Source of the DNA: Bdellovibrio bacteriovorus str. Tiberius
GTDB taxonomy: Bacteria > Bdellovibrionota > Bdellovibrionia > Bdellovibrionales > Bdellovibrionaceae
Direction: 5' to 3'
Assembly: GCF_000317895.1 (NCBI RefSeq)
Contig: NC_019567.1
Location: 1,240,001-1,304,000, forward strand
DNA length: 64,000 bases
This document shows, one piece after another, positions 6,568-24,260 of the stretch. The position numbers and the translations under genes were made by a program. Numbering within the stretch: position 1 is the stretch's first letter; every line of letters starts with the position of its first letter. The notes under the pieces are model-generated. The model had not been told where the DNA came from and did not search any database. It saw nothing but the letters and a program-made list of their open reading frames with translations.

Positions 6568-6705
6568 AGATTCGTTAGAACTTATAGCTGGACCTCGCCG
6601 CTCAGACAGTCCTCGTTCGTGTTTTTTTGGCGGTGGCTCCGCTGAGGCTGTTTTGCCTCACTGCGGAACTCGCGTCGATGTCCAGCTATAAGTTCTAACG
6701 AATCT
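6568..6705. repeat. Long hairpin H1: 26-bp perfect stem around a conserved core
   Basis: Bases 6568-6593 and 6680-6705 are perfect inverted copies of each other (26 bp). They enclose an 86-base core. The core holds CTCAGACAGTCCTCGTTC at about 6601-6618, a T tract, GTGGCTCCGCTG at about 6634-6645, a small inner hairpin (TGAGGC/GCCTCA) and ACTGCGGAACTCGCG ending at 6674. The same blocks, in the same order, occur in hairpin H2 at 8098-8239, whose stem sequence is different. H1 lies in the 5' leader of lemA and ends just before its GGAGG. It could act as a transcription or translation control element or as a mobile insert. Confidence 0.85.
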
Positions 6706-8097: not shown

Positions 8098-8239
8098 CCT
8101 TGGCTTGGGTTATGGCCTTAGTGCCTTGCTCGCTCGGACAGTCCTCGCTCTTTTTGGTTTTTTGTGGCTGCCGCTGGTGGAATTTGGGTTCGCTGCGGAA
8201 CTCGCGCTCAAGGCACTAAGGCCATAGCCCAAGCCAAGG
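8098..8239. repeat. Long hairpin H2: 31-bp stem around a core shared with H1
   Basis: Bases 8098-8128 and 8209-8239 form a 31-bp stem with one G-U type mismatch. The 80-base core shares blocks with H1: CTCGGACAGTCCTCGCTC at 8132-8149, a T/G tract, GTGGCTGCCGCTG at about 8164-8176 and CGCTGCGGAACTCGCG at 8191-8206. The stem sequence has no likeness to that of H1. It starts 17 bases after the stop of the first TPM gene, between it and the second. Confidence 0.85.
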
Positions 8240-8344: not shown

Positions 8345-8989
8345 ATGGCTTGGATTAATAAATATCTTTCTGAGGCTGATCTTGCGCGGATTGAGGCGGC
8401 TATTTCCAAAATGGAAGAAGCCACTTCTGGAGAGATTGTTCCTGTAATTGTTCGTCGGTCTTCAGCCGTGGGGCATGTGCCTTTGACGCTGACTTTGCTT
8501 TTGACTCTGTTTTTGGTCATTGTTGAGTTTCCGTTCAGTGACTGGTTGTGGGTGACCCCTTGGGTTTATCTGTGGCCGGTGATAGTGGTTGCGTTTTATG
8601 CGCTTTCTCATGTGTTGGCGAAGAGCAAGTGGATTCAGAAGCTGTTTGTGCCTGAAAAGGACGAAGTCGATTCTGTTCATCAGCGCGCGCATTTGGAATT
8701 CTATCTAAACCGTATTCATCGCACGGAAGGCGGGACCGGGGTTTTGATCTTTGTTTCTGTGATGGAAAAAAAGGCGGTCGTGCTGGCCGATGAGGGAATT
8801 TCCAAAAAGCTTCCGAAGGAACACTGGGATGAAATTCTTGGAATTCTGGGGAAGAGCCTTCATCAAGGGCAGTGGGCACAAGGTTTCGTGGCGGCTATCG
8901 AGGCTTGCGGTAAAGATCTGCAGACCCATTTCCCGCTGGCTTCCGCTGGGACCAACGAGCTTAAAAATCATCTTATTATCAAAGATTAA
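8345..8989 (+). CDS. Second TPM-domain membrane protein
   Basis: A 214-residue protein with the TPM-type start LARIEAAISKMEEATSGEIVPVIV (residues 13-36). Two to three hydrophobic segments follow between about residues 46 and 95, and the domain continues with GTGVLIFVSVMEKKAVVLAD (about 123-142). Unlike the first TPM protein it lacks a cleaved signal and a Gly-rich tail, and its membrane segments interrupt the domain. It follows the lemA-TPM pair on the same strand after hairpin H2 and has GAGGGAA before its ATG. It is a likely third partner of the LemA/TPM set. Confidence 0.8.
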   Translation: MAWINKYLSEADLARIEAAISKMEEATSGEIVPVIVRRSSAVGHVPLTLTLLLTLFLVIVEFPFSDWLWVTPWVYLWPVIVVAFYALSHVLAKSKWIQKLFVPEKDEVDSVHQRAHLEFYLNRIHRTEGGTGVLIFVSVMEKKAVVLADEGISKKLPKEHWDEILGILGKSLHQGQWAQGFVAAIEACGKDLQTHFPLASAGTNELKNHLIIKD

Positions 8990-8994
8990 GGATT

Positions 8995-9014
8995 CTGGCG
9001 CCACGGCGCGCCAG
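8995..9014 (+). terminator. GC-rich hairpin after the TPM gene
   Basis: CTGGCGC at 8995-9001 pairs with GCGCCAG at 9008-9014, starting six bases after the stop codon. Only a weak T-rich stretch follows, so termination is likely but not certain. Confidence 0.5.
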
Positions 9015-9022
9015 TTCATTCC

Positions 9023-9050
9023 TTGCGTTCTTCCGGGCTTCATTGATAGT
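9023..9050 (+). promoter_or_regulatory. Putative promoter of the split host tRNA-Arg gene
   Basis: TTGCGT at 9023-9028 and GATAGT at 9045-9050 are 16 bases apart, and the tRNA 5' end is 15 bases further on at 9065. This placing is right for a tRNA promoter. It would now drive only the broken 5' half. Confidence 0.45.
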
Positions 9051-9064
9051 CTGGGACCCTCTGT

Positions 9065-9107
9065 GCAGTCGTAGTTCAATGGATAGAGCACTTGGCTTCG
9101 AATCAAG
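9065..9107 (+). pseudogene. 5' half of host tRNA-Arg(TCG), cut by the integrated element
   Basis: GCAGTCG-TA-GTTC-AATGGATA-GAGC-A-CTTGG-CTTCGAA is the acceptor strand, D arm, 5' anticodon stem and anticodon loop (TCG) of an arginine tRNA. After the loop the sequence reads TCAAG, which still closes the anticodon stem with one G-U pair. It then turns into unrelated AT-rich DNA with no T arm or acceptor 3' strand. The missing part is at 23956-24000, where the acceptor strand CGACTGC exactly complements GCAGTCG here. Joining the two at the shared CTTCGAA gives a complete 76-base tRNA-Arg. So this is one host gene split by about 14.85 kb. Confidence 0.88.
9096..9107 (+). repeat. attL core
   Basis: CTTCGAATCAAG. 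It matches the right-end copy CTTCGAACCAAG at 23956-23967 in 11 of 12 positions. The exactly shared seven bases are the anticodon loop, the usual overlap region for tyrosine integrases that use the anticodon-loop site. Confidence 0.75.
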
Positions 9108-9186
9108 TAAACCGAAAAGTTCTTGATCGAAAAAAAGTATTGTTTCCAAGGTGTTATGAGACTGCTAAAGTTGCATTGTTGCCAAA

Positions 9187-9204
9187 GGGTCCCCAGAGGG
9201 TCCA
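9187..9204 (+). repeat. Left-end paired arm-site repeat
   Basis: GGGTCCCCAGAGGGTCCA contains two GGGTCC units. It matches the right-end GGGGCCATAGAGGGGCCA (23806-23823) at 14 of 18 positions in the same orientation. Paired short repeats about 100-150 bases inside each end are the usual form of integrase arm sites. Confidence 0.5.
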
Positions 9205-9240
9205 AATGGCAGAGCTACTAAATCGTTTTGTTCATTATGT

Positions 9241-9317
9241 GCGGCTGTAGTTCAGCTGGATAGAGCACCTGGCTTCGAACCAGGGGGTCGGGAGTTCGAA
9301 TCTCTCCAGCCGCACCA
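9241..9317 (+). tRNA. tRNA-Arg (anticodon TCG), complete, carried by the element
   Basis: The cloverleaf is complete. The acceptor GCGGCTG pairs with CAGCCGC, the D arm is GTTC/GAGC, the anticodon arm is CCTGG-CTTCGAA-CCAGG with anticodon TCG (reads CGA), and the T arm is GGGAG-TTCGAAT-CTCTC. Discriminator A and an encoded CCA follow. It lies 133 bases inside the left end of the element. It has the same anticodon as the host tRNA gene that the element splits. Its acceptor and T stems differ from that gene at many positions, so it is not a recent copy. It may take over decoding of CGA. Confidence 0.95.
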
Positions 9318-9323
9318 CTCTTT

Positions 9324-9842
9324 TTAAGTCTTAACTACAGTTAAAGCATTTTTTAGAAGGCTTAGCGTGGCTAGCCTTGCGTAGTTCTTCCTCGCCGTGC
9401 TTAGATGGGCTTTGTTATGTCGCTTTTCAACAGCGTTGTCTTTATGCTTAACTAAGACATTCAGAATTCTTGTAGTGGACTTACTACTGGTCATAGTTGT
9501 TATTCTTTTACCTCGCCCACGCGATGGCTTCTCATGGTTAGCGACGAGGAAGGCTAGCAACACCAAATTGCGATATCCTATTCTAGTTCTATGTAAGCTC
9601 GTATTAGTTGTGATTGTAAAAAAGTTCTTACAGAATGCGCATCTCCACCTTAATGCACTTTTCTTATCTTGATTACACCTGCGGCTACTACAATACGGGC
9701 ATTCTACATTTGTGCCATTACTCCAACCGCGTGCGAGCAGTAAAAATCGTTCGAGCTTTGGCGTGTCCTGATAGCGCGTGGAAAACTTTTTGAACTGCAA
9801 AGCAATTTTTGGGGACCCCCAAAAACGTGTCATATCTTTCAT
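9324..9842 (-). CDS. Zinc-ribbon protein, like the N-terminal domain of IS1595-type transposases
   Basis: A 172-residue protein with a zinc ribbon CPYC (residues 48-51) and CAFC (about 69-72), followed by NFFTITTNTSLHRTRI. This layout (CPxC, CxxC, then K-x-F-T-V-x-T-x-T-x-F-x-x-T-R) is that of the N-terminal part of IS1595/ISXO2 transposases. The catalytic DDE region that should follow is absent. The C-terminal half is basic and of no known family. It may be a relic of a transposase or a DNA-binding protein derived from one. It ends seven bases from the tRNA, on the opposite strand. Confidence 0.6.
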   Translation of the reverse strand: MKDMTRFWGSPKIALQFKKFSTRYQDTPKLERFLLLARGWSNGTNVECPYCSSRRCNQDKKSALRWRCAFCKNFFTITTNTSLHRTRIGYRNLVLLAFLVANHEKPSRGRGKRITTMTSSKSTTRILNVLVKHKDNAVEKRHNKAHLSTARKNYARLATLSLLKNALTVVKT

Positions 9843-9880
9843 TCCTGACTTTTATCCTGAGCACTTCTTTTTTTCAAGCC

Positions 9881-9925
9881 TGTGTTTTTAAGTAGTCCAG
9901 AAAAAATGTGTTTTTAAGTGGTCCA
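9881..9925 (+). repeat. Two direct repeats upstream of the alpA-like gene
   Basis: TGTGTTTTTAAGTAGTCCA at 9881-9899 and TGTGTTTTTAAGTGGTCCA at 9907-9925 are 19-base copies with one difference, 26 bases apart. They lie in the 135-base gap before the AlpA-like gene. They could be operator sites, replication iterons, or the end of a lost insertion sequence. Confidence 0.65.
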
Positions 9926-9977
9926 ATATTGAAAATCGATTTTTACAAAACTGTGAATAAGCTGCAAAGGAGAATGT

Positions 9978-10259
9978 ATGAGTGTAAAAATCATATGTAT
10001 TGCAATTGTGGCACAAAGAATTGGTGTTTCTAAATCGACAATTTTAAGAATGGAGCGAGCGGGAAAATTCGTTCCTAGAGCGAAGATATCGCCTGGGAGG
10101 TTTGGATACTCTGAGCAGGACGTCGAGCGCTGGATTCAAAGTAAGTTCGTGGAAACAGAAAGTAGAAGTCTTACCGAATCGGATATGGCTTCTTTGCCCT
10201 ATGGTCGTGATGTTGCACAAAGAAACAACCGCTCCGGAGGCCGAAATGCAAATGGATAA
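9978..10259 (+). CDS. AlpA-like helix-turn-helix regulator
   Basis: A 93-residue protein with a MerR/AlpA-type winged helix: AQRIGVSKSTILRMERAGKF (residues 12-31), then a turn and SEQDVERWIQSK (about 45-56). Proteins of this kind act as excisionase or transcription activator for P4-type integrase genes and are common on such elements. The ATG is preceded by AAAGGAG. It is the first gene of a rightward run with the two following genes, which overlap one another. It probably controls integration/excision or the replication genes of the element. Confidence 0.75.
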   Translation: MSVKIICIAIVAQRIGVSKSTILRMERAGKFVPRAKISPGRFGYSEQDVERWIQSKFVETESRSLTESDMASLPYGRDVAQRNNRSGGRNANG

Positions 10260-11049
10260 CGTACAACGCTGGAAAGTTGTTCGCGGTGGTGCCATCGCAA
10301 ATAGAAATGGTCTTCCCGGATTTAATGACGAAACCGCTGAAAGAATCAAGAGCTTGCTTTATCAAGGTCGATATTTACTGACGACTGTTGATACCCAGTC
10401 GCGCATCGAAATAGGGCGCATTGCAAGTGCCCTTCAAGAAATCTTAGGCAAATCGTTTTGGGAAACTGTGGGCCAACACTGGCTTAGACCCGTAATGGCA
10501 GAGGGCGAGGTGTTGGCTAAATTTGTATCAAACAGAAGGCGTCATCTAGAGATCTCAATGCAAATGTTTAGGTTTGCGGTTTCTGCGGGAAGAGCATGCC
10601 CAAGATCGATACCGGCGGACTCATACGTACATATTATGCGCGAGGTAGAAAAAATTAGAGAGACGCCTCAAAAAAAGAGGTTCATCAAAATTCTAGTAAA
10701 TGAAGGAAAAAAAGGAACTGTTGACCTTTATCGAACGAAAAGACTTAGAGAAGAGTTGAGGGTAATAAGGGAAGAAATTTTTGGCTTTGGAGATAGAGAC
10801 CTGAAGGAAAAGCAGCTTAAGAGAAAAGTGCATTCTTTGTGGATTGCTGCGGACGCTGCAATGGACAGAATATCTTCTCTGCTTGCGTCTCTAAACGACG
10901 ACATTGGAAAAGTTGGTGTGATCTCTCCCGATACTGCTAGCGATATTCAGGAAGTGTTGGCGACTCTTAAGGTGAAGAGAATTGAACAAAAAGAACAATG
11001 TATGGGCCTAGAAAAGGCTAAAGATCAATCTCAAGAGAGCCTGGTATGA
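10246..11049 (+). CDS. Unknown element protein between the AlpA-like gene and the putative Rep gene
   Basis: A 267-residue protein that I do not recognise. It is rich in charged helices, with likely coiled-coil regions at about residues 125-180 and 225-255, and has no signal or membrane segment. I chose the ATG at 10246 because CCGGAGG ends six bases before it; it overlaps the end of the alpA-like gene. The frame is open as far up as 10102, but those codons sit inside the AlpA-like gene. Its stop overlaps the start of the next gene (ATGA). Its place suggests a replication or control partner of the putative initiator. Confidence 0.65.
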   Translation: MQMDNVQRWKVVRGGAIANRNGLPGFNDETAERIKSLLYQGRYLLTTVDTQSRIEIGRIASALQEILGKSFWETVGQHWLRPVMAEGEVLAKFVSNRRRHLEISMQMFRFAVSAGRACPRSIPADSYVHIMREVEKIRETPQKKRFIKILVNEGKKGTVDLYRTKRLREELRVIREEIFGFGDRDLKEKQLKRKVHSLWIAADAAMDRISSLLASLNDDIGKVGVISPDTASDIQEVLATLKVKRIEQKEQCMGLEKAKDQSQESLV

Positions 11050-12017
11050 GTAAGAAGTACATTAAAACTCACGTAACACGTATGTTTTACCGTCAGTCTC
11101 CCGAGCTTAGGGTTATCCATAAAAGACAAGATATTAAAGTTGAATGTTTTATTGATACTTTAGAAGTGCATTTCAATAAGCTAAATCAAACTTTTGTAGA
11201 GAAGTGTCAAAAACTCTATAAAAGGACACCAAGAAGTGGATACAAGAAAGGATTGAGACTGATCTCGATTCAAGGAGTAGAGTTTAGTTTGTATGTAGAT
11301 TGCTTAAATGAGTCTAAATGGAAGTATAAGATCGCTATGACTATACGGTTTGCAATGACTAGTTACGGCGACTTGGAAGTATTTCTTTCTTCCCTGATTT
11401 CAGACTTTTTTGAGAAGGAGAGCCATCAAATTAATAGGGTGGATATTGGTTTTGCTTTGAACTGTCATGAGGTTCCTGCAAACTTTCTAATTTATACGAC
11501 TCATTTAAAGTGGAACAGAAGGAAGTCGAGATACACCGGAGATAAGACGGACTTGGGTGGAGGTGGAATTACGGGATTTCACTCTAACGGGCAAGGAGTC
11601 CGTACCTCAGTATACACGGAAGGTGCAAAGCCGGCATGGATGAGAAGCGATCGCGTCGAAGAAATCAAAATGGAGTTCCAGATTAGAAAGAAGAATCTTA
11701 TTGCGAAGGGGATATATAGACTATCTGACCTGGCCAAAATTGAAGATACTAATCTCTTGGATCGTATCAAAATATATAATACCTTTCTTCTTCGATCAGA
11801 GCACAAGAGGCATCTAGAAAAATTTGTAAGATTTCAAGAAGATGTACTTGCCTTAGGGTTTACTCAAGCGAGAAAAAATCTGGATAAAAATGGAAATTTT
11901 AAAAGGGATTTTGAAGTAATTCTTATGCCTCTAAAATTTAGGAATGGCAAAAGAACGATGCACCTTTTTTTGAGGGCAAGATGGGCGAGTTGGCTGAGGA
12001 AATGGTGTAACCACTAA
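11046..12017 (+). CDS. Putative rolling-circle replication initiator (Rep_trans-like)
   Basis: The 323-residue product has the order of weak motifs seen in the replication initiation factor family (PF02486) of filamentous phages and pT181-type plasmids. These are IDTLEVHF near residue 37, INRVDIGFAL near 136, a Tyr-containing strand SVYTEGAKPAW near 191 and the acidic strand EEIKMEFQIRKKNL near 208. I infer that it nicks the element DNA at an origin to start rolling-circle replication. The match is by pattern only, and the catalytic Tyr cannot be fixed. It overlaps the previous gene by four bases. Base composition is AT-rich compared with the flanking chromosome. Confidence 0.45.
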   Translation: MSKKYIKTHVTRMFYRQSPELRVIHKRQDIKVECFIDTLEVHFNKLNQTFVEKCQKLYKRTPRSGYKKGLRLISIQGVEFSLYVDCLNESKWKYKIAMTIRFAMTSYGDLEVFLSSLISDFFEKESHQINRVDIGFALNCHEVPANFLIYTTHLKWNRRKSRYTGDKTDLGGGGITGFHSNGQGVRTSVYTEGAKPAWMRSDRVEEIKMEFQIRKKNLIAKGIYRLSDLAKIEDTNLLDRIKIYNTFLLRSEHKRHLEKFVRFQEDVLALGFTQARKNLDKNGNFKRDFEVILMPLKFRNGKRTMHLFLRARWASWLRKWCNH

Positions 12018-12167
12018 AGATATTGGCAATACTTAGGCGATGGAATTGAGAAAGAAATTCGTTTTCGAGCGTGGAATTCGTGATATTCTACAGGGTCACG
12101 GATTCCATCACCAAATTTGTTAATTGGGGTCTGAACTTCATAGGAAATCTGTTGCTAGGAGCTTGCT

Positions 12168-13298
12168 GTGGATCGACGTCGTCGAAAGAAAATTTCTCCA
12201 GAAATAAGGATGGCACTTTGGGAGTTGTGGGCTAAGAAGTGCGCATATTGTAGTCATCCGACGGAAAAAGAATATCATGTGGAGCATATCGTTCCTTTAA
12301 GTTCAGTTTCGGCGGCCGCACTTGAGATTTTAAAAAGAGCTGAGTTGAATTTATCTGAATCGTTTGATTTTGATAGCTTAGATAACTATTCAATCGCGTG
12401 TGCCCCTTGTAATAAAACTAAATACTATCATGAACTTCCCAATGCGAGCATTTATTTGGCAAAGGCTGCTGCTTTAAAGAATGAGGTTATTCGTCGAGCC
12501 AATGAGATCGCAGCAAATTTAAATGCAGCAAAAGTAATTGGTTCGATGCAAGTCGTTCTCGATCAAGGGCTCATTTCCAAAGAAGACTTTAAAGAGCTTT
12601 TTCGCGAGTTCGATAGAGTTAGAATTCCGCCAAATAGTCCTTTATATCCTGAGTTGGCTGGCGCAAGCGCACTTGATATTCCCGTTATTTTTCAAACGGA
12701 AATGGTTGACGACTTTTTCCTTAGAAGGGAAGAGAATCAAGTACAGGTGAGAACTATAAATGATTATCTGAAATATAGTGCCGAAGGATATGAGGCATCC
12801 TGTAACGCAGAATTTAAGGCCGGCCTATACACTTTCGATATTCCTGCAAGAATTTTGCATGCTCTCTCAGGGGCCAGTAAGAGTGATGGAGCCTTTTCAA
12901 GAGAGGTTGATGAGGTCTTTAAATATCCAAGCCGACTTCCTGCAAATATTTTTATGGAATCTGATGAGGGATCTACGAAAACTTTGCTTGGTCAACTATT
13001 GAAGAGATCGGCTAAGATTATTGATAGGGATGCTGGATACCTTGAAGTATGTACAAAATGGCTTTGGAGTTCGCAGTTGTTTGTAATTGCCAAGGGGGAT
13101 TTTACCGGCTCCAAGAAGGAAGAAGTTTTGATCTTTCTAAATGCATGTCCTGTCCACGGAACGCTGCGATGCCCTAGTGTTATTATTCTTACACCACATT
13201 ATCGTACGGACTTCTTTGATAGACTTTTCTATCGTCTATTTGGAAAGCGACGGATTCTTTATGAATCAAGAACAGTTGAGCTTCCAAAGCCACTATGA
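12168..13298 (+). CDS. HNH endonuclease-domain protein
   Basis: The N-terminal 90 residues are an HNH nuclease. CAYC (25-28) and CAPC (78-81) form the zinc knuckles, with HVEH at 37-40 (catalytic His region) and Asn82 in CNKTK. The remaining 285 residues contain no domain I know. A C-terminal segment with YRTDFFDRLFYRLFGKRRIL may contact membrane or DNA. The GTG start at 12168 is preceded by TAGGAG. Such HNH proteins with a long partner domain are common cargo on mobile elements and are often part of defence. That role is only inferred here. Confidence 0.75.
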   Translation: MDRRRRKKISPEIRMALWELWAKKCAYCSHPTEKEYHVEHIVPLSSVSAAALEILKRAELNLSESFDFDSLDNYSIACAPCNKTKYYHELPNASIYLAKAAALKNEVIRRANEIAANLNAAKVIGSMQVVLDQGLISKEDFKELFREFDRVRIPPNSPLYPELAGASALDIPVIFQTEMVDDFFLRREENQVQVRTINDYLKYSAEGYEASCNAEFKAGLYTFDIPARILHALSGASKSDGAFSREVDEVFKYPSRLPANIFMESDEGSTKTLLGQLLKRSAKIIDRDAGYLEVCTKWLWSSQLFVIAKGDFTGSKKEEVLIFLNACPVHGTLRCPSVIILTPHYRTDFFDRLFYRLFGKRRILYESRTVELPKPL

Positions 13299-13516
13299 GT
13301 TTTGAATTGCCTTGTTGAAAGTCTCGAACAATATGTTGGGCATTCACTTTAAAAGGCGTAGATAGGCGTGCATTTTCAGCCTAGTTTGCAGAATGGAGCC
13401 GCCTTTGCTGGGTGCGTAGATTTGTACGTGCCACGTGATACTTCAGGCTGGACCAGAACTCACTGCTTGCATCGCAGTACTTAGAACATAAAAATATGTT
13501 TGCAGGTTGGTGACGA

Positions 13517-13900
13517 GTGAGCAGGCAAACAATGAAGTCAGAAAAAAGAAGATTAAATGAGTCCAATGATGAGCATTGGGGCAATCGTTTGCAGTCAGTT
13601 CTTGATGAAAAAGGAATCAGTCGAAGGCAAATTGCTAAGGCCATTGGAGTTGCTCCTTCTGTGATTGACTCGTGGGTGCGTGGGGCCGCTCCTAATGATT
13701 TGAAGGCGGTCAAAAGGCTTGCAGACAACGTAGACTGCTCGTTCTCATGGCTACTTACTGGGGAAGAAGAGGCTGGCAACGGTCGTACTGTTTCCGAGTT
13801 GTTTCAATCTGTTCCCTACTTTGATGGGTATGCTAGAATTCGTATTGATCGACTAGTGCCAAGAAAGAAAAATAACAGAGATGCAGGAGAGCTTGAATGA
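13517..13900 (+). CDS. XRE-family transcriptional regulator
   Basis: A protein of up to 127 residues with a Cro/cI-type helix-turn-helix: LQSVLDEKGISRRQIAKAIGVAPSVIDSWVRG around residues 25-56, followed by the helix pair LKAVKRLADNVDCSFSWLLTGE. The N-terminus is uncertain; GTG at 13517 and ATG at 13532 are both possible and neither has a strong ribosome binding site. The stop overlaps the start of the next, secreted protein gene (ATGA), so the two are translated together and the regulator probably controls that unit. Confidence 0.75.
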   Translation: MSRQTMKSEKRRLNESNDEHWGNRLQSVLDEKGISRRQIAKAIGVAPSVIDSWVRGAAPNDLKAVKRLADNVDCSFSWLLTGEEEAGNGRTVSELFQSVPYFDGYARIRIDRLVPRKKNNRDAGELE

Positions 13901-14967
13901 ACCTATCACGTTGGATCTTGCTGGGCATTGGTGTTCTTTTTGTCTATTCGACTGCTTATGCTGATAGAGCCGAATGCATCAAAGATTTTAGCGCAAACGC
14001 ATCATTGTCAAGCGCCGATCAAATTGGATTGAGCATCGTCAATGAAGAAAGCATGGCGAAGGCTAAATGGGCTCTTGGGTTCTTGGAAAAATGTAGACGT
14101 TCCGGCTTAACTGGCGCCCTGATGATATCCAAGAATGAAGAGGTTATTCGCAAGAATATTGCATCTTATCAAGAGAAGAAGGACAAAAAAGATGCGCGGA
14201 TTACCTCCTGCGCCGAATACTCAAAATGTCATGCTGATATTAATAATGATAGTGCCATTTATAGCTGGTTTTTCCAGTTTTCATCCTATAAGCGAGACAG
14301 TCATCCGTTCAATGGTAATGTGTATGACTCTTCTGCTGCCAGCGCAGCCAAATATGCAGAAGGATGTACGTGCTATCTTGAGATTGAGGATCTTGTTGGG
14401 GCTGGTGAGGCTGCCCGAGTTGCTACTAATGAGAAGCTGGAGCAAGATCGTCGAAAGCAGGAAGATGAAAAAAAGGCTCACGCACAGAGAATAAAGGATG
14501 AGAAGGCACAAGCAGTTCGGCAAAAGGATGCCGAGCGAAGACGGACTCTTTTGGAGCAGGAGGAAAGCAAAAAGTTAGCTGAACTTCAGAAGCAAAAAGA
14601 GGTTGATCGCGAGAAATCTGATAAAATGGAGCGCTCAGCGGAGTGTCAAAGCGCAAGAGCGCTTCAGAGCTACTGTAAGGCATATCTTTATATCTTAACG
14701 GCGAAAGAGCATTTAGATCGGGAAAAGACTCTGGCTCAACGGTCTGGCTATACTGATGCTCGACGAGTACGAGGATTGACTGCGTCTATAATGGCTGGTG
14801 AGGACGAGCTCTTGAGTCAAAGTAAGAAGTATCGCGCTTTAACTGGATCTGCTCCAAGTAACTCTGTCTGCGCTGTAGAGAATATGGATGGATATTGGCA
14901 AATGAAAGAAGTGACTGAGGAGTCACTTAATGCCAGAGTCGCAAAAAGCTGTATCTACGGTAAGTAA
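13897..14967 (+). CDS. Secreted coiled-coil protein of unknown function
   Basis: A 356-residue exported protein with a signal peptide ending STAYA (about residue 22). The N-terminal domain holds Cys pairs (CIKDF, CRRSG, CAEYSKC, CTCY). A charged coiled coil rich in Lys, Glu, Arg and Gln runs from about 180 to 248, and the C-terminal domain has three further Cys. An even number of cysteines in an exported protein suggests disulphides. It shares an ATGA overlap with the XRE regulator gene. I know no family match. Confidence 0.6.
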   Translation: MNLSRWILLGIGVLFVYSTAYADRAECIKDFSANASLSSADQIGLSIVNEESMAKAKWALGFLEKCRRSGLTGALMISKNEEVIRKNIASYQEKKDKKDARITSCAEYSKCHADINNDSAIYSWFFQFSSYKRDSHPFNGNVYDSSAASAAKYAEGCTCYLEIEDLVGAGEAARVATNEKLEQDRRKQEDEKKAHAQRIKDEKAQAVRQKDAERRRTLLEQEESKKLAELQKQKEVDREKSDKMERSAECQSARALQSYCKAYLYILTAKEHLDREKTLAQRSGYTDARRVRGLTASIMAGEDELLSQSKKYRALTGSAPSNSVCAVENMDGYWQMKEVTEESLNARVAKSCIYGK

Positions 14968-15154
14968 GGGCTGTCCGGAATGGTGCGCACAATAACTATT
15001 AATGCCTCGGCGAGAGGCACTAGCCCCATAACTCACGTTTATATCTTGAGATTTTCCCACACATACTTCTGAATCATGCACAGCCTTTCACTCGGTCGAC
15101 TTTAGACTTCAGACGAGGGGCCGATAAACTAGTTATTGATTTGGGAGGTCCAAC

Positions 15155-16216
15155 ATGAATATGCGCCTAAATATGCTATTGGTGCCAGTGCTTACCCTTC
15201 TTTTGCAGGGTTGTTTGTCAGCAGGCGGTGGAGGTAGCGCAGAAATCGTACCATTGAAACCACCGACATCGGGTACGGATGACAACGGCAGCACAGAACC
15301 AAACGTACCAGGTACTTCATTGAACGGTTCAGTTTTTGACGAAAACTTTCACGCATATACCAGACCGTTCGGATCTAACTACTATCTACATATATCTACA
15401 TTGAATCCTACTATCATTGGTTATGCGAATGAGGAAACAGTGTTGGTTATGCGTACGGGTACTACTGTTTTCAATGCACAGACAGATTCTATCGAAACGG
15501 CTTCGGGTCGTGTTTGTCATATAGTAGGTACTATCCCAGCTTATGGGGATCCGGGTTCTGTAGAGTTACTTTGTAAGTTCGACAAACTTCCAGTGCATCC
15601 AGTGTTCGGTCCAAATGGTATTCACGAGTTCACAGAGACTAGCGAGACTTTGTACTACAAGAGAAATGGTGTGCAAGCACTTCAGAGAAACTTGGGTCAG
15701 ATCTATTTCATCAATAGAGGTAAACTTCAGCTAGAGGTTGTTAACTCAAACGTAACTGACTTGTGGATTAATACTTCAGGTCCAACTGAAGGGAAAGTTT
15801 GCGAAGGTATCATTCCTGACTGTGGTAAAGAAATCAAAGTAACTAACATTAGTGGTTTTGCGTCATCGGGTTTCCGTGCAGCTGGTATTCGTGGTCTGGG
15901 TACTTGTGCGACTCAAGGTTTTGAGAAGTCGGGTTCAGCTACGCATTTGAATGCAATGGAATCTTTTGAAGGTTCTTCCACACTTGCAGACATGGAAGTG
16001 TACGTAGAGTTGGAACCGGGTCAGTCTTGTACTTTTATCGCTAGAGGGTCTTACAAAACAGAAAACATTCCAGCGACTTTTGTGCAGTTGTTGATGGTAG
16101 ATCGCGTGAGCTTCCAGAGTCCGGAGCTAACAGTATTGCACTCAGCGGACTACTCGGTAACAGCAGCAGCTAACATTGGTATGTGGAAGCCTTTCCTTTA
16201 CAGCACTAAGGAATAA
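15155..16216 (+). CDS. Lipoprotein of unknown function
   Basis: A 353-residue protein with a lipoprotein signal (MLLVPVLTLLLQGC, Cys20), then a Gly/Ser/Pro/Thr-rich linker to about residue 55 and a beta-rich body with several Cys. GGGAGG lies just before the ATG. It stands alone, 187 bases after the secreted coiled-coil gene. It resembles in style the many single-copy surface lipoproteins of Bdellovibrio, and could alter the cell surface of a host carrying the element. No domain recognised. Confidence 0.6.
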   Translation: MNMRLNMLLVPVLTLLLQGCLSAGGGGSAEIVPLKPPTSGTDDNGSTEPNVPGTSLNGSVFDENFHAYTRPFGSNYYLHISTLNPTIIGYANEETVLVMRTGTTVFNAQTDSIETASGRVCHIVGTIPAYGDPGSVELLCKFDKLPVHPVFGPNGIHEFTETSETLYYKRNGVQALQRNLGQIYFINRGKLQLEVVNSNVTDLWINTSGPTEGKVCEGIIPDCGKEIKVTNISGFASSGFRAAGIRGLGTCATQGFEKSGSATHLNAMESFEGSSTLADMEVYVELEPGQSCTFIARGSYKTENIPATFVQLLMVDRVSFQSPELTVLHSADYSVTAAANIGMWKPFLYSTKE

Positions 16217-16225
16217 ATTGGTTGG

Positions 16226-16615
16226 TTATCTAAGTAGATGCTGCAGTAGTTGCTTAATGCTAAATGAAGACTTTAACTTGGGATCTCTTAGGATTAGCGA
16301 GTTGCCGTTCGGAATTGAATCCACGATTAGACTCACTGATTTCCCATCTTTCCTTGTGACTGTGACGCTCTCGTTTCGTTTAATTTTGAAAGACCTTAGG
16401 GTCATGGTGCTGGCTAGTATTACAGAGGCTTGTATGGACGTTCGATCTTGTTTAAAGAGGCTTGGGGGTACTAGGTAGAGCCCGTCATTGACGACTTCCT
16501 GCAAGATAAAGTCTGTGATAATTCCGTTCTCTGTGCTTACCTTAACTCGGTCCCCTTTGCTAATGTATCTAAAGGTCAGGGGATCTTCCCAGTTTACTTT
16601 GGACATTGCTTTCAT
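16226..16615 (-). CDS. Hypothetical 129-aa protein downstream of the recombinase
   Basis: A small protein with two similar halves, each with a strand-rich segment of the kind G-D-x-V-x-V-x-x-x-x-G-x-x-x-x-x-I-V. The two are GDRVKVSTENGIITDFIL near residue 21 and ESVTVTRKDGKSVSLIV near 81. I infer two SH3-like or PilZ-like barrels; no known family is certain. AGGAGA precedes the ATG. It starts 12 bases after the recombinase stop on the same strand, so it is the second gene of that operon and may be its accessory factor. Confidence 0.6.
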   Translation of the reverse strand: MKAMSKVNWEDPLTFRYISKGDRVKVSTENGIITDFILQEVVNDGLYLVPPSLFKQDRTSIQASVILASTMTLRSFKIKRNESVTVTRKDGKSVSLIVDSIPNGNSLILRDPKLKSSFSIKQLLQHLLR

Positions 16616-16626
16616 TGGCTCTCCTT

Positions 16627-17388
16627 TTAAATTTTATCTAGTGCTTCAATGGCTTGATTTTTCACTCCTGCCAAAGATAGGTGGGTATAGATTTGTTGTG
16701 CATTAGAGTTCTTTGAGTGACCGCATAAAATGGCTCTTTGATCTTCCGATAGTCCAGCTTCTGCGAGCTTCGTAGCGTACAGGTGTCTTAGTAAATGGGG
16801 ATGAATTTTGACGGAAGATGTTTTGCTATATTGAACGGCGAGTTGCTGTATTCTGCGAGGAGTATATTTCGTTTGTAGGGAGGACTCGAAAAGGTATCTG
16901 TTATTACGCCCGGCCAAGTAAAGCTCAATCTTTGACTTTAGGTTGTTTCCAAAAACAATGACTCTGTCTTTGTTGCCTTTGCCCTCTTTTATAAAGGCCG
17001 TATTCTGGGGGAAATCAATTCTTCTAACCTCAAGGGTGCAAAGCTCAGAAATTCTCAACCCTGTTCCTAGAAGGAATTGGAATATCAGCTTGTGTACGGG
17101 ATCGGGAATTGTCGAAAAGAATTTCTCAAGGTCCGCATCTGAGGGAAGCTCGATGAGTTTAGTTCCTTGTTTCGGAGTTTCCAGGTGACACCGAGTCCTG
17201 ACTTCGCGGAAGACTCTTTTAAGCTGCTCGTAAGTTAGCTTGTGCCGATTCACTTCCTTCGCGATCACCTTAATGAGTTGGTCAGTTGCATTGCTAACAT
17301 AAGGGCGCTGTTTCGCAGATATGGTCTCGTGTGCGAAATCTCCGTATCTGGCTTTGTTGGAAATGGATTTATTGACATCTGAGGACAT
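16627..17388 (-). CDS. Tyrosine recombinase (XerC/D-like), intact copy
   Basis: A 253-residue recombinase with the full catalytic set: Arg in GTGLRISELC (about residue 111), Lys in the GKGNKDR turn, HLLRH box (about 198-202), and GHSKNSNAQQIYTHLS with the second His and the Tyr nucleophile (about 224-239). It is short for Xer proteins (about 300) because the N-terminal core-binding domain is reduced. It is a different family from the P4-type integrase at the element end. It is followed by the 129-residue gene. Its promoter region and first 218 codons are present again, upstream, in a tandem duplication. Confidence 0.85.
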   Translation of the reverse strand: MSSDVNKSISNKARYGDFAHETISAKQRPYVSNATDQLIKVIAKEVNRHKLTYEQLKRVFREVRTRCHLETPKQGTKLIELPSDADLEKFFSTIPDPVHKLIFQFLLGTGLRISELCTLEVRRIDFPQNTAFIKEGKGNKDRVIVFGNNLKSKIELYLAGRNNRYLFESSLQTKYTPRRIQQLAVQYSKTSSVKIHPHLLRHLYATKLAEAGLSEDQRAILCGHSKNSNAQQIYTHLSLAGVKNQAIEALDKI

Positions 17389-18317
17389 GTAGTCTCCTGA
17401 AGAAATGGTTCTGCTTCGCGCACTGTATAGTTCTGCGAAATACTCAATTTCTATATAAGTCGGATAAGTTGTTAAAATTGATAAGTAGAAAAAGTGCAGA
17501 CATTTGTTCGTGGAGTTGAATCGGGGCTCTTTGATCTTCCGATAGTCCAGCTTCTGCGAGCTTCGTAGCGTACAGGTGTCTTAGTAAATGGGGATGAATT
17601 TTGACGGAAGATGTTTTGCTATATTGAACGGCGAGTTGCTGTATTCTGCGAGGAGTATATTTCGTTTGTAGGGAGGACTCGAAAAGGTATCTGTTATTAC
17701 GCCCGGCCAAGTAAAGCTCAATCTTTGACTTTAGGTTGTTTCCAAAAACAATGACTCTGTCTTTGTTGCCTTTGCCCTCTTTTATAAAGGCCGTATTCTG
17801 GGGGAAATCAATTCTTCTAACCTCAAGGGTGCAAAGCTCAGAAATTCTCAACCCTGTTCCTAGAAGGAATTGGAATATCAGCTTGTGTACGGGATCGGGA
17901 ATTGTCGAAAAGAATTTCTCAAGGTCCGCATCTGAGGGAAGCTCGATGAGTTTAGTTCCTTGTTTCGGAGTTTCCAGGTGACACCGAGTCCTGACTTCGC
18001 GGAAGACTCTTTTAAGCTGCTCGTAAGTTAGCTTGTGCCGATTCACTTCCTTCGCGATCACCTTAATGAGTTGGTCAGTTGCATTGCTAACATAAGGGCG
18101 CTGTTTCGCAGATATGGTCTCGTGTGCGAAATCTCCGTATCTGGCTTTGTTGGAAATGGATTTATTGACATCTGAGGACATGTAGTCTCCTGAAGAAATG
18201 GTTCTGCTTCGCGCACTGTATAGTTCTGCGAAATACTCAATTTCTATATAAGTCGGATAAGTTGTTAAAATTGATAAGTAGAAAAAGTGCAGACATTTGT
18301 TCGTGGAGTTGAATCGG
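16732..18317. repeat. 793-bp perfect tandem duplication
   Basis: Bases 16732-17524 are repeated as 17525-18317, directly abutting. The unit covers most of the recombinase gene (codons 1 to about 218) plus the roughly 135 bases upstream of it. The encoded proteins are identical over the shared part, so the duplication is recent. The IS at 18329 begins 11 bases beyond the right copy. Confidence 0.9.
17444..18181 (-). pseudogene. Truncated second copy of the tyrosine recombinase
   Basis: This 245-codon frame is identical to the intact recombinase up to LSEDQRA (about residue 218). It then runs through the duplication joint into 27 unrelated residues. It keeps the first Arg and the HxxR box but lacks the second His and the Tyr nucleophile, so it cannot cut DNA. 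It could still bind sites or the intact partner. Its upstream region is the same as that of the intact copy, so both should be expressed alike. Confidence 0.85.
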
Positions 18318-18353
18318 AAGAATTGGAGTGAACCCCGATTTTTTGGACACGGT

Positions 18354-19106
18354 TTAAAAGTTCACGGACCCTTTGTACTCGACCGGGCTCTTCATGCCAA
18401 GTGCTGAGTGCGGAGCAATATTGTTATAATCTGCAAACCACTGCGGCAAAAGCTTGAGAACCGTCTCTGCGCTGTCACAGTCAGCCTGATAAACGTAATC
18501 CCTTTTGATTGTTTTAACGAATGCTTCAGCCATGCCGTTGGATTCTGGGCTGTAGGCTCTGGTGTAACAGCAATTCAGATTTAACTCTTTGCCAAGATCC
18601 TTCACGGACTTCGCACGGTAAATTGACCCTCGATCTGACAACCACTGAATTTCGCGAGGACATCTCAATGACTCACCAAATCTCGCTTCAACAGCTTTAA
18701 CCATCAATTCCTCTATGTCGGTAGCTGATAGCGGCTCAGTCCTAGCGACGTAAGCAAATGCTTCGCGATCACAACAATCCAAAGCAAACGCCACGAAAAC
18801 TTTGTCGCCGTTAAAACAGCGGATTTCCATGCCATCTGAACACCAACGCAGATTCGGGAACATAGTCATAACAACTCCCGTATGTGGCCTTTTTGGCTGT
18901 GGCATTGTTTGTGGCAATGAAAGACCATTCATGCGCATGATTCTTTGAACACGCTTGCGATTGATCTTATTGCGACCATCAAGGGATCTTTGGCGATTCA
19001 CCATCGTTGTCACCCGGCGGTAGCCATAGGTGGCTCTAATTGCAATAACGGCTTTGATTTCTTCTAAAATTATTTGATCGTCTGATTTTTGGTAATGGCG
19101 AGGCAT
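18354..19106 (-). CDS. IS2-like transposase OrfB (DDE integrase core)
   Basis: The protein has the HTH_21 helix region (YGYRRVTTMVNRQR) and the rve catalytic core. The DDE residues are Asp in WCSDGMEIRC, Asp in LSDRGSIYRA and Glu in SPESNGMAEAFVKTIKRDYV, a signature typical of IS2. Read from the A8 tract at 19241-19248 in the -1 frame, the reading frame stays open through the region upstream of the listed ATG into this ORF. The active transposase is therefore likely an OrfAB fusion. It appears intact. Confidence 0.88.
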   Translation of the reverse strand: MPRHYQKSDDQIILEEIKAVIAIRATYGYRRVTTMVNRQRSLDGRNKINRKRVQRIMRMNGLSLPQTMPQPKRPHTGVVMTMFPNLRWCSDGMEIRCFNGDKVFVAFALDCCDREAFAYVARTEPLSATDIEELMVKAVEARFGESLRCPREIQWLSDRGSIYRAKSVKDLGKELNLNCCYTRAYSPESNGMAEAFVKTIKRDYVYQADCDSAETVLKLLPQWFADYNNIAPHSALGMKSPVEYKGSVNF

Positions 19107-19180
19107 GCCAATTTCCTCCTGAGAAACTGGTTCGTAATAAATTGAACTTCGGCTGATTTCGAAAACTTCTGCGATCTGAC

Positions 19181-19558
19181 TTACTTCATACCGATTAAGC
19201 GCTTTGACTTCTTTGGCGGTTGAAGTGCTTTTAATATCGCTTTTTTTTGAACGATCTCCAGGCCATCTTTTAAGATGTCATTCTTGATCGTCAAATCGCC
19301 AACTTTAGCTTTGAGATTCTGATTCTCAGCCTTGAGTTTGTCGTTTTCTTCGATCAACTTTTGAATGTATTCCGCACTGATTGGGGATTCGTCTTTTTTG
19401 TGGTTCATTTGCCTCTTCCAACTATAAAGAGTGATAGCATGAACCCCGTATTTCCTGGCAAGCACTGGGATAGAAATTCCCTGGGAATTGTGCTCTTTGA
19501 TGATTAATTGCTTCTTTTCCTGTGTAAATACTTTCCGTCTGTTAGACGTTGTTTCCAT
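19181..19558 (-). CDS. IS2-like OrfA (HTH and leucine zipper)
   Basis: A 125-residue protein with an N-terminal helix-turn-helix (ISIPVLARKYGVHAITLYSW, about residues 24-43). A leucine-zipper coiled coil follows (IQKLIEENDKLKAENQNLKA, about 64-83, and on to about 98), used for DNA binding and multimerisation. I take the ATG at 19558, which has AGGGGG just upstream. The longer open frame runs through the terminal repeat and is not likely translated. Confidence 0.85.
   Translation of the reverse strand: METTSNRRKVFTQEKKQLIIKEHNSQGISIPVLARKYGVHAITLYSWKRQMNHKKDESPISAEYIQKLIEENDKLKAENQNLKAKVGDLTIKNDILKDGLEIVQKKAILKALQPPKKSKRLIGMK
19241..19248 (-). other. Programmed -1 frameshift site (A8)
   Basis: On the minus strand a run of eight A precedes GCG near the end of orfA. 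Slipping back one base leads straight into the open orfB frame (reading SDIKSTSTAKEV and on). This is the usual way IS3-family elements make OrfAB. Confidence 0.8.
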
Positions 19559-19643
19559 AAAGACCCCCTGGGTTGGGTGTCCAAATAAAATCGGGGTCAG
19601 GAACAGAATCAAGCTCTGTTATTCGTTACCAATTTGGTAGTCA

Positions 19644-19790
19644 TCACGCAGTCACGCAAACACAACATCATTTTATTATGCATTACGTGGTGTTTCAATG
19701 GTTAAAAAACGCAAAAAAAACCATATAATATCATATAGTTAAGTGGTTGTTTTGCGACGCATTTGCTTCGTTGGTCACGTGGTCACGCAA
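19644..19790 (+). promoter_or_regulatory. Promoter flanked by phased TCACG repeats before the 204-aa/JAMM pair
   Basis: TTAAAA (19702-19707) and TATAAT (19724-19729) are 16 bases apart and make a good promoter. On the upstream side TCACGCAG-TCACGCAA (19644-19659) repeats at an 8-base period. On the downstream side GGTCACGT-GGTCACGC (19773-19788) repeats again at 8 bases. Such paired boxes on both sides of a promoter suggest a dimeric repressor and possible looping, perhaps autoregulation. Confidence 0.45.
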
Positions 19791-19820
19791 TACCATAGAA
19801 CTAACACAAATGGAGTCTGT

Positions 19821-20435
19821 ATGAGCCAAAAGCAGCGTAGTACCAGCGTTCGTTCCTCGTTCGTAAACCAGGAGGCGAAAGCTCTAATCGACAAAATTAG
19901 ACTGTCATATAAGAAATCACTAAAGTCTCTCATCGGGGTTGGCGGCCATTTGCAAAGGCTGCGTGAGCTACTTTGCCGACAAGAGTTTCAAAAGGCCATA
20001 AAGAGTATTGGACTCAGCGAAATTCAGGCGTCAAGACTTATCAACTTGCATACTCGATTCAAAGATCATCAGACCAAGGCAGTTCTAGGCAGCAAGGTAT
20101 CGGTGCTCTATCTACTTGCTAGTGGTCAACCGAGCCGTGAGGTGGCGCGTCTCATGGTTGGACAAGCTGTGAAGATAGATGGAACAAGAAAGACTATCGA
20201 CACACTGACAGTTAAAGATGCTTCTCATCTGTCGCGCCCTCAGAGGCGCATCGCAAGAAGAAGAATTGAAGTCTCCAATGACCGCCTTTATGTCACAAGG
20301 TTGGAAGAGCTGAATGATCAGACTTCCGAGATCATATTACTGCGGCGTCGTAACAAGCTTAAGAATCACGCCCAGATCAAACTTGTCATGGAGGATGCAG
20401 TTAAGTGCCTAAAGCAAGCCATAGCTCAGATGTAG
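19821..20435 (+). CDS. Unknown 204-aa protein paired with a JAMM protease
   Basis: The product is basic and mostly helical, with no signal or membrane segment. The middle part (GVGGHLQRLRELLCRQEFQKAIKSIGLSE, split over about residues 38-66) recalls DUF3102-like plasmid proteins, though weakly. I take the ATG at 19821, which has TGGAG upstream; the open frame before it overlaps the repeat-flanked promoter. The gene overlaps the start of the JAMM gene by 31 bases, so the two are probably made together. Function unknown. Confidence 0.6.
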   Translation: MSQKQRSTSVRSSFVNQEAKALIDKIRLSYKKSLKSLIGVGGHLQRLRELLCRQEFQKAIKSIGLSEIQASRLINLHTRFKDHQTKAVLGSKVSVLYLLASGQPSREVARLMVGQAVKIDGTRKTIDTLTVKDASHLSRPQRRIARRRIEVSNDRLYVTRLEELNDQTSEIILLRRRNKLKNHAQIKLVMEDAVKCLKQAIAQM

Positions 20436-20842
20436 CTAAGACTATTAAAATCAAGGAAAAGTGTTATTTACAGCTGTTGGCTTGGTCGATGTCTTATAAT
20501 GAGGTGGGATTCATCTGCGCAGGTAGAAATGACTGCATAGTGTCCGTGTTTAGAATTAAGAATGCGTCGCAAACGACGAGGCATCGCTATGTATGGGATA
20601 GGAAGCAAAGAAGTGAAGTTCTAACTGCTATTTCAAAAAAAGAATTAGTGGTGCTAGCAGAAGGACATTCTCATCCGCACCCAAGGCATTTGCGGAGGCC
20701 ATCACGAGAAGATATTGACTACTTCAAGCATGGCATACCACATATAATTGTATTTCCATGTGAAAGCGAGATACGTGGATGGATTTTAGGGAATAAGATG
20801 TTCAAAGCAAAAAATGCGCAGATTCAAATTGTAGTCATTTAG
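20405..20842 (+). CDS. JAMM/MPN-type metalloprotease (JAB domain)
   Basis: The 145-residue product carries a complete JAMM zinc site: Glu33 in NEVGFICAG, His88 and His90 in EGHSHPHP, and Ser100 and Asp103 in RPSREDIDYF. Spacing His-x-His-x9-Ser-x2-Asp is close to the canonical x7. Such enzymes cut isopeptide or peptide bonds next to ubiquitin-like folds, and in bacteria occur in CBASS, Bil and related defence systems and in phage tail assembly. No E1, E2 or ubiquitin-like gene is seen here, so the substrate is unknown. The start is GTG inside the previous gene; an ATG at codon 29 would still keep Glu33 but is less likely. Confidence 0.75.
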   Translation: MPKASHSSDVAKTIKIKEKCYLQLLAWSMSYNEVGFICAGRNDCIVSVFRIKNASQTTRHRYVWDRKQRSEVLTAISKKELVVLAEGHSHPHPRHLRRPSREDIDYFKHGIPHIIVFPCESEIRGWILGNKMFKAKNAQIQIVVI

Positions 20843-20843
20843 A

Positions 20844-20878
20844 TTAGGGCTGCATCTTTTAATTAGATGCAGCCCTAA
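20844..20878. terminator. 14-bp perfect hairpin between convergent genes
   Basis: TTAGGGCTGCATCT (20844-20857) and AGATGCAGCCCTAA (20865-20878) form a perfect stem with a 7-base loop between the JAMM gene and the convergent HEPN-like gene. The flanks lack a strong T run, so it is a probable bidirectional terminator. Confidence 0.6.
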
Positions 20879-20882
20879 AGAT

Positions 20883-22388
20883 CTATTTTGTTTTTAAGTA
20901 GAGATCCTCTACGTCAGTTTGGAAAGTAGAGTCTCCTGATAGGGGTCTCATATCTATTGGAGCTAGAGACAGAATTCTGTTGAGCAACGGAGTTATTTTG
21001 GGATCAGAGTTTGAATTTTTAATTAATGTGATTATTTCCATGAAGTTCTTCGCATTTAAATTGAACTGAAGATGGGTCTGGAATTCGACATCTTTCGTGA
21101 ATAACATTAATAGAATGGCAACCTGGCGGGAGCTAAACCGACCGATAAGGTCATCGTAGGTGTTTTTTGCAGACCATGAAACCCCATATCCGTTGCCCAT
21201 GCGGCACATCGCAATAGTTTTAATGTATTGGTATTCAATAGAGGGAGGGATATCTCCATTTGGAGGAATATACTTTTGGATGTGTGCCGCTGGGGCCCCT
21301 TCATTTGCGAAGTTGTTGTATCCATGATGAGCTTGCCAAAGGCTTTGTAGCAGCATCTGAAGGTCTACGGCCTTGCTGTCTTCAGGTAAGAATGAAAGGC
21401 CATCTACTGCACTTAGAAGCGCATACACATTCTGCTTTTTGGGGATGTCCCCATTTGCCGCCAGAGTCGCATAGTATAGGCCATTTGCTTTTTTTGATTC
21501 ATCTGTCGAACGCTTCCAAACGCACGGAGTAACTAGATATATATTGTTTCTGACTGAAGAAGGAATGCTTGGATCTGAGAACATCCCAAAGAGAGTTCTC
21601 GCCAGAGAAGAAACAAGGTCGTTTGGCAGTCTCACTACCGCGGATTCGATTTGTGGGATATCTGCCGGAACGAAAGACTGAGATCGTATATTAGAGAGAA
21701 GTCGTCGAACTTCGACGACAGCTCCTTCTGGCTCTCTTGAAAGAACTTCCTTTTGGCAAGTTTCTAACCAGGAGACAACTTGCAGACCTGTTAGTTGATT
21801 GTGATTTGGGTGCGCAGCGCTAGCATGGTTTCTCATAGTGCGTATATAGTCTAGGTGCTTGTACCCTAGGTCAGTAATGATTCCAGTGGTAAGGCATCCT
21901 TTGACCAGTTCCCAATCGTCTAATTCCTTAAGGTCATCGGCGATCTTAAAGCGTGGTCTTTTCTTTGGGTCGCTGATGGCACTGTCGAAAAAGTATTCCA
22001 GATCAAATTTTTCGACTTTATGACGGAGGTTAGTGACCGTTTCATTCCACAGAAAGTTAAGTGCTGCATCAAATAGACCGGCCGCGCAAGCAGCAACGAA
22101 CTTAGAAATGTACATCGCACGATCTCGTTGCTCTGGTGTGAGATCGGCCGAAATATCGGGTAGATTTTTTATTACCTTCATTCTTTCATTTACGGGAACT
22201 AAGATTCCGGTGGCGGGAAGACCTAAATCTGTTAGGTAGTTGGATAAATTCTCGGAGAATGTGTCAATTGAGAGATTTCGTGTTGCGGGGATAGCTGGCT
22301 TGTTACTATCGTGTGGAGTCATACTTTCCTTTAATATTTCACTAATATCCGAATGATGTTTTTTATTTAGTACTTCCCGCAGAAGCAT
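20883..22388 (-). CDS. HEPN-like protein, possible abortive-infection factor
   Basis: A 501-residue cytoplasmic protein of no firm family. The segment YIRTMRNHASAAHPN (residues 181-195) fits the HEPN ribonuclease motif, Arg-x6-His preceded by a helix (Arg186, His193). The N-terminal 180 residues are helical, as in HEPN domains. The C-terminal 300 residues, with QSLWQAHHGYNNFANEG near 350, have no known match. HEPN RNases act as toxins or in abortive infection, so a phage-defence role is a fair inference for element cargo. It stands alone, convergent with the JAMM pair. Confidence in the HEPN call is moderate. Confidence 0.45.
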   Translation of the reverse strand: MLLREVLNKKHHSDISEILKESMTPHDSNKPAIPATRNLSIDTFSENLSNYLTDLGLPATGILVPVNERMKVIKNLPDISADLTPEQRDRAMYISKFVAACAAGLFDAALNFLWNETVTNLRHKVEKFDLEYFFDSAISDPKKRPRFKIADDLKELDDWELVKGCLTTGIITDLGYKHLDYIRTMRNHASAAHPNHNQLTGLQVVSWLETCQKEVLSREPEGAVVEVRRLLSNIRSQSFVPADIPQIESAVVRLPNDLVSSLARTLFGMFSDPSIPSSVRNNIYLVTPCVWKRSTDESKKANGLYYATLAANGDIPKKQNVYALLSAVDGLSFLPEDSKAVDLQMLLQSLWQAHHGYNNFANEGAPAAHIQKYIPPNGDIPPSIEYQYIKTIAMCRMGNGYGVSWSAKNTYDDLIGRFSSRQVAILLMLFTKDVEFQTHLQFNLNAKNFMEIITLIKNSNSDPKITPLLNRILSLAPIDMRPLSGDSTFQTDVEDLYLKTK

Positions 22389-22581
22389 AATCGTGATGCA
22401 AAGGCTTTAAAGCGACCATCATCTGCATTAACCATGAATGTTCCAGTATCATATTCATTAGGTAAACTAAAAATAGTGTTTTTATGGAAAAATTGGACTA
22501 GTGGCATTGCTCTTTTCTAAATGGCTGACGGAAGGTCGGTGTTTCGTTTGATAGGACTTCTGGCGAGGAAGCTTTTGCGGA

Positions 22582-23757: not shown

Positions 23758-23805
23758 ATTGCTTCCTCTCAACTATTTGACTTTTTTGTCTTCTAAAAGA
23801 CTTGA

Positions 23806-23823
23806 GGGGCCATAGAGGGGCCA
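23806..23823 (+). repeat. Right-end paired arm-site repeat
   Basis: GGGGCCATAGAGGGGCCA, two GGGGCC units, lies in the gap between the integrase start and attR. It matches the left-end pair at 9187-9204 in 14 of 18 positions. Its place next to int fits an integrase arm site that may also affect int expression. Confidence 0.5.
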
Positions 23824-23955
23824 AAAAGTCGAAACTTGAAGACAGCAGTTGAATAGCCTTGAATGCGTTCAGAGGGAACTAAGTGTTTGAAAAGACGGAT
23901 CTTTAGTACGTCAGGCGTATTCAATCGTTGTCACCAGCGATCAATGTACCAGAGA

Positions 23956-24000
23956 CTTCGAACCAAGGGGTTGCAGGTTCGAGTCCTGCCGACTGCACCA
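23956..24000 (+). pseudogene. 3' half of the split host tRNA-Arg(TCG), with attR core
   Basis: CTTCGAA-CCAAG-GGGTT-GCAGG-TTCGAGT-CCTGC-CGACTGC-A-CCA is the anticodon loop, 3' anticodon stem, variable loop, T arm, acceptor 3' strand, discriminator and CCA of an arginine tRNA. Just upstream the sequence reads TGTACCAGAGA, which does not give a 5' anticodon stem, D arm or acceptor strand. The acceptor CGACTGC pairs exactly with GCAGTCG at 9065-9071. The first 12 bases are the attR core. Confidence 0.88.
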
Positions 24001-24199: not shown

Positions 24200-24260
24200 C
24201 CTTCGCTCTTTGAGATTCGGCTTGCTTTGTCGACTTTCTTTCATCGTAAATTTCTAGTAT

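Follow-up and report, generated by a model that had tools for sequence, protein, structure and literature searches.

We analysed a window of 64,000 nucleotides (positions 1,240,001-1,304,000) in the genome of the predatory bacterium Bdellovibrio bacteriovorus str. Tiberius (G000), which is a single contig of 3,988,594 bp. An integrative element of 14.86 kb occupies window positions 9096-23962 (coordinates are those of the window and refer to the plus strand unless stated otherwise), and its GC content is 42.9% compared to 50.5% outside. The element interrupts the native tRNA-Arg(TCG) gene within the 7-base anticodon loop CTTCGAA, and this core is present at both ends, as the identical 7 bases of attL (9096-9102) and attR (23956-23962). 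The 5′ half of the native gene extends over 9065-9107, where 9065-9102 is the host part and TCAAG at 9103-9107 comes from the element; the attR core followed by the 3′ half extends over 23956-24000. Both junctions hold a short core and tRNA halves only, with no functional tRNA at either. The left junction reads on as TCAAGTAAACCG and has no tRNA 3′ half, so that the conventional feature of islands, rebuilding of the target by a 3′ part of the tRNA carried in attP, is absent there. When the two halves were rejoined, they gave a 76-mer with 100% identity to the intact gene in 11 genomes of the same genus. The joined flanks aligned uninterrupted over the junction in G023 (153 bp, 92.8%) and in G005 (180 bp, 88.9%), which shows that these loci are empty sites. 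These two genomes are sister species and the closest relatives of G000, and they carry the native type of tRNA with matching flanks and without a second tRNA-Arg(TCG).

A tyrosine integrase of 396 amino acids (22582-23772, minus strand) with arm-binding and catalytic domains (PF00589, 7.5e-25; PF13356, 2.8e-13) and conserved catalytic-type residues is located at the right end of the element, and an AlpA-like excisionase or regulator (9978-10259; phrog_66, E 5e-11) near the left end. Two putative left arm-type integrase sites, AGGGTCC, which are assigned this function by analogy, lie 11 bp apart at 9186-9192 and 9197-9203, and two putative right arm-type sites, AGGGGCC, also 11 bp apart, lie at 23805-23811 and 23816-23822. 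Among the 10 element proteins, no match to a capsid, terminase or portal protein was found in PHROGs, and there was one weak tail-like/JAB match; PADLOC returned weak HNH/PtuB-like and JAB matches only. The locus is better called an integrative element than a temperate phage. Within the element, two adjacent genes for XerC-like recombinases (16627-18181) share 300 nt at 100% identity (16732-17031 and 17525-17824), which suggests a very recent duplication or gene conversion, and a 501-amino-acid protein (20883-22388) strongly matches phrog_27609, a group of unknown function (E 1e-67), and has no Pfam match. Elsewhere in the window, two imperfect inverted repeats with arms of 34-36 nt that are 70 nt apart (6568-6705 and 8098-8239) lie near a gene for a TPM-domain protein upstream of the element, and the sequence at 55102-55176 forms a perfect inverted repeat, in which a 17-nt loop separates arms of 29 nt.

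A spare tRNA-Arg(TCG) and arginine decoding

A complete tRNA-Arg(TCG) with an encoded CCA end lies inside the left end of the element at 9241-9317, as the initial annotation had reported. Both ARAGORN and Rfam identified it, as the sole complete tRNA that they found, and its Rfam score is 67.1 bits against a gathering score of 29. The acceptor, anticodon and T stems of this spare tRNA differ from those of the native tRNA-Arg(TCG); therefore, the spare is not a recent duplicate of the split gene, in agreement with the earlier claim. A tRNA census of G000, in which 19 of 169 first-look candidates remained unscored, gave 35 tRNAs, and the arginine tRNAs among them are ACG, TCT and TCG, one of each. 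The spare is the only intact TCG gene in the genome, and no tRNA-like sequence came up in G000 when patterns of a CCG tRNA were searched for. With one TCG tRNA and no CCG tRNA found, the set in the host is non-redundant. TadA is also present, with a score above the family cut-off. Inosine 34 of tRNA-Arg(ACG) decodes CGU, CGC and CGA, and it does not decode CGG. Since TadA and tRNA-Arg(ACG) cannot read CGG, this codon should depend on the TCG tRNA, and CGG decoding in the host should depend on the element. CGG occurs at a frequency of 3.5 per 1000 codons in the 26 host open reading frames of the window. These results bear out the earlier view that the spare replaces the gene that the element destroys, as the sole TCG gene of a host in which no further tRNA should read CGG; the proposal that CGA is the critical codon does not hold, since CGA should be read by TadA together with tRNA-Arg(ACG), and the critical codon is CGG.

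The spare is very probably functional, because the native gene is broken in an assembled genome. We estimate that the chance of any tRNA lying within 150 bp of a given site is about 0.3% (35 tRNAs in 4 Mb), and the same anticodon is far less likely than this; chance does not explain the arrangement. A probable promoter of the native tRNA (TTGCGT, a spacer of 16 nt and GATAGT; 9023-9050) is conserved in the alignment with G023, G005 and G015, and may be in use. There was no match to a sigma-70 promoter for transcription of the spare itself on the plus strand of 8900-9900, and no terminator-like site was found in 8900-9900. Since neither a plus-strand promoter match nor a terminator-like site was found between the native promoter and the spare, the spare may be transcribed through read-through from the native promoter.

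A sister element and the wider integrase family

Among 141 genomes of the order, the integrase has a single near relative, in G036, which belongs to another genus of the same family and whose contig is publicly available under the name Bdellovibrio sp. CG10_big_fil_rev. A search for close integrase relatives in phages, plasmids, viral contigs and the 141 order-level genomes returned G036 only. In a tree built on the catalytic part, the integrases of G000 and G036 group as sisters with a support of 0.94; they are 55% identical across about 104 aligned catalytic columns. In G036, a host gene is followed by an orphan 5′ half of a tRNA-Arg(ACG), by two arm sites and by a complete tRNA-Arg(ACG), after which come the element genes and the integrase. 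The orphan 5′ half stops in the anticodon loop, the putative arm sites are spaced 11 bp, and the left arm sites are offset from the core by 91 and 102 in G000 and by 92 and 103 in G036. The 3′ half was not found in the G036 assembly, which is 81% complete, and the right end lies off the contig. In both independent elements, the anticodon of the element tRNA is the anticodon of the split target. Because the sister integrase in G036 has the same layout with a different arginine tRNA, the arrangement seems to be a heritable attachment module fitted to two different arginine tRNAs.

More distant relatives of the integrase were found at 80 loci in the genome collection and on 9 viral contigs. The integrase gene is immediately preceded at most of these genome loci by a tRNA 3′ half with its start at or close to the anticodon loop, and Phe, Lys, Thr, Asn, Arg and Pro are among the tRNAs that match best. 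Both ends were visible at 11 loci (L142, L145, L218, L242, L249, L255, L262, L268, L274, L279 and L280), where the far end has a complete tRNA and no orphan 5′ half, as in conventional rebuilding; in G331, which was found by genome search (40% identical), the target is intact and an orphan 5′ half is absent. The target was rebuilt in all 12 informative distant cases, and we rejected the distant relatives as spare-tRNA elements. Apparent complete tRNAs beside the integrase at L242 and L276 were likewise rejected, since they are 3′ halves with chance 5′ parts. The expectation that related elements carry the spare holds for the nearest relative and fails for the wider integrase family. Since the distant relatives rebuild their target conventionally, the spare-tRNA mode looks derived inside an otherwise conventional integrase family. 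Conventional tRNA islands (Islander, PMC4383910) have in common with the G000 element related tyrosine integrases, the anticodon-loop sublocation and a displaced 3′ half by the integrase gene, whereas their attP 3′ half rebuilds a complete tRNA and the G000 element does not.

Exchange of tRNA-Arg(TCG) alleles in the genus

The 77 bases of the spare are 100% identical to the tRNA-Arg(TCG) of five other genomes of the genus (G009, G011, G015, G021 and G022), and versions of 95-96% are found in four more. In the same-genus loci that were read (L092-L113), each genome has one TCG gene, which belongs to one of three divergent types. On a tree built on one gene, rpoB, the types are scattered, with 7 changes on 23 tips, which is not significantly fewer than the mean of 8.2 for random labels. 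G015, the sister of the group of G000, G005 and G023, carries the type of the spare, and G005 and G023 carry the native type; likewise, G010 has the native type, and its sisters G011, G021 and G022 have that of the spare. The promoter region upstream stays homologous across these allele swaps. Since the types are scattered on the tree and the upstream promoter regions are homologous, the single-copy TCG gene is exchanged repeatedly in the genus. According to the initial annotation, replacement would be refuted if strains that lack the element had the same tRNA at this locus. This is partly the case, since an identical tRNA (100%) does occur in such strains, most clearly in G015 and also in G009, G011, G021 and G022; the type of the spare replaces the native type there and does not lie beside it, and therefore this result shows the origin of the spare and does not refute replacement.

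As for the route of exchange, the element is a plausible vehicle of allele swaps, and swaps by homologous recombination from strain to strain are an equally good candidate. An insertion such as that in the window is one way in which an exchange can begin. A possible though doubtful extension is that the TCG gene is a slot with a changing occupant, in which elements break the resident allele and supply another, and their decay leaves the supplied one in place. If the element is indeed the vehicle, a whole tRNA as cargo would free it from matching the stems of the allele in the host. In other strains of the genus, the stretches read, which reached up to 20 kb, contained no remnants of a split gene, and at E 1e-4 no integrase of this family and no gene like the XerC-like one of the element was found near the locus.

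Other tRNA-derived sequences were observed at these loci. The native tRNA ends in 14-15 bases (CTGCCGACTGCACCA) that occur again 100-260 bp downstream of the tRNA in G005, G023 and G006 (L106, L108 and L103); in G000 (23986-24006 and 24184-24204), the second copy follows the 3′ half at a distance of about 200 bp. This repeat resembles what an older element using the 3′ end of the tRNA would leave behind. At L104 (G017), a tRNA-like fragment, TTACTCATTGGATAGAACGCTTGGCTCATAGCCAAGCGG, lies immediately ahead of the intact tRNA-Arg(TCG). The arginine codon use of the element (9978-23772) is foreign, with AGA making up 39% of its arginine codons compared to 8.5% in host genes; despite this, its tRNA-Arg allele is one that is native to the genus.

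Probable tRNA-dependent integration and other explanations

We consider it highly probable that integration is tRNA-dependent, that is, the element breaks the single tRNA-Arg(TCG) gene and the cells that carry it need the spare to survive. The split gene, the empty site, the sole intact TCG gene, the failure to find a CCG tRNA and the layout of the sister element are read from the sequence, and we infer from them a spare that is transcribed and charged, an active integrase and a lethal outcome if the spare were lost. The tyrosine integrase would cross over through 7 bp in the anticodon loop of the single tRNA-Arg(TCG) of the host. The attachment site would be without the tRNA 3′ half by which such elements usually rebuild their target, and integration would thus destroy the host gene; the complete tRNA-Arg(TCG) just inside the left arm-type sites would then take over CGG and share CGA. 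The 7-bp core would suffice for the crossover, and the spare would relieve the element of matching the stems of the host tRNA. A tRNA that is half native and half spare probably would not fold, because the two differ in the acceptor, anticodon and T stems. In favor of this explanation, the spare is a good tRNA, with the same sequence as the TCG tRNA in five more species; against it, no clear promoter of its own was found in 8900-9900.

The identical tRNA that is resident at the locus in G015 and is the single TCG gene in four further species would also fit a history in which the locus originally had the spare and acquired the split TCG gene later, so that the element did not bring the spare. 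This is very unlikely, because the spare sits between the native halves, inside the inserted segment, and because G005 and G023, which are closest to G000, lack a spare and carry the native type in matching flanks. Mobile elements do carry tRNAs to serve their own codon usage or to resist tRNA-cutting defences, and CGA is more frequent in the element than in the host (11% versus 6.5% of arginine codons). We give little credence, however, to such another purpose with the replacement being incidental, since CGG is equal in both (7% of arginine codons), AGA, the commonest arginine codon of the element, is not read by the spare, and the anticodon fits the split target in both independent elements.

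The initial annotation had proposed a tRNA-based stability mechanism. An inexact deletion would take away the sole tRNA that reads CGG, and the penalty for inexact loss or decay is upheld. That the tRNA evolved mainly to punish loss of the element, as an addiction or stability module, is nevertheless improbable: exact excision would give back a native gene that is 100% intact, so that normal loss would go unpunished, and the tRNA would be needed first for surviving integration. The term stability mechanism is hence too strong. Under tRNA-dependent integration, the spare would be a prerequisite of integration and would also protect against inexact loss, and since exact excision would restore the native gene, the element would not be an addiction system in the strict sense.

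The combination of a tyrosine integrase that recombines in a host tRNA gene with a complete tRNA of the same isotype on the element has an experimentally proven precedent in the tRNA-dependent lysogeny of mycobacteriophages such as Fionnbharth, LeBron and Gaia, which have short cores and carry a cognate tRNA, and the authors of that study suggest that the phenomenon may extend beyond actinobacterial phages (Guerrero-Bustamante and Hatfull, mBio 2024, PMC10865867). Shared with these phages are a tyrosine integrase with an arm-binding domain, paired arm-type sites, a cognate complete tRNA on the element, a core within a single-copy host tRNA gene (8-17 bp in the phages, 7 bp here) and no rebuilt tRNA at either junction. 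In contrast, the present case has a host of another phylum, an integrase of another family and the isotype Arg instead of Lys, Ile2 or Leu; the element is 15 kb long with no recognised phage structural genes except one weak JAB/tail-like match, the spare adjoins the arm-type sites, and the system is known from sequence alone. In Sinorhizobium meliloti, host tRNA genes are reported to be replaced by phage-related sequences, and the study points to tRNA diversification (PMC11476347). There too, an isoacceptor gene that the element brings takes the place of a host tRNA gene that was inactivated; the incoming tRNA resembles those of unrelated species, whereas here it is identical to a TCG allele of the same genus. 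Experimental proof of such tRNA replacement has so far come from some temperate phages only.

Taken together, these results would extend tRNA-dependent integration, so far described in actinobacterial phages and reported for phage-related sequences of rhizobia, to a small integrative element of predatory bacteria, with two related elements that break and replace two different arginine tRNAs. What is distinct here is that the only expected reader of CGG is involved and that alleles are exchanged across the genus. A decoding function that the host should not be able to do without would now depend on a mobile element, and the locus offers a natural system for studying the exchange between species of single-copy tRNA genes, which are thought of as stable.
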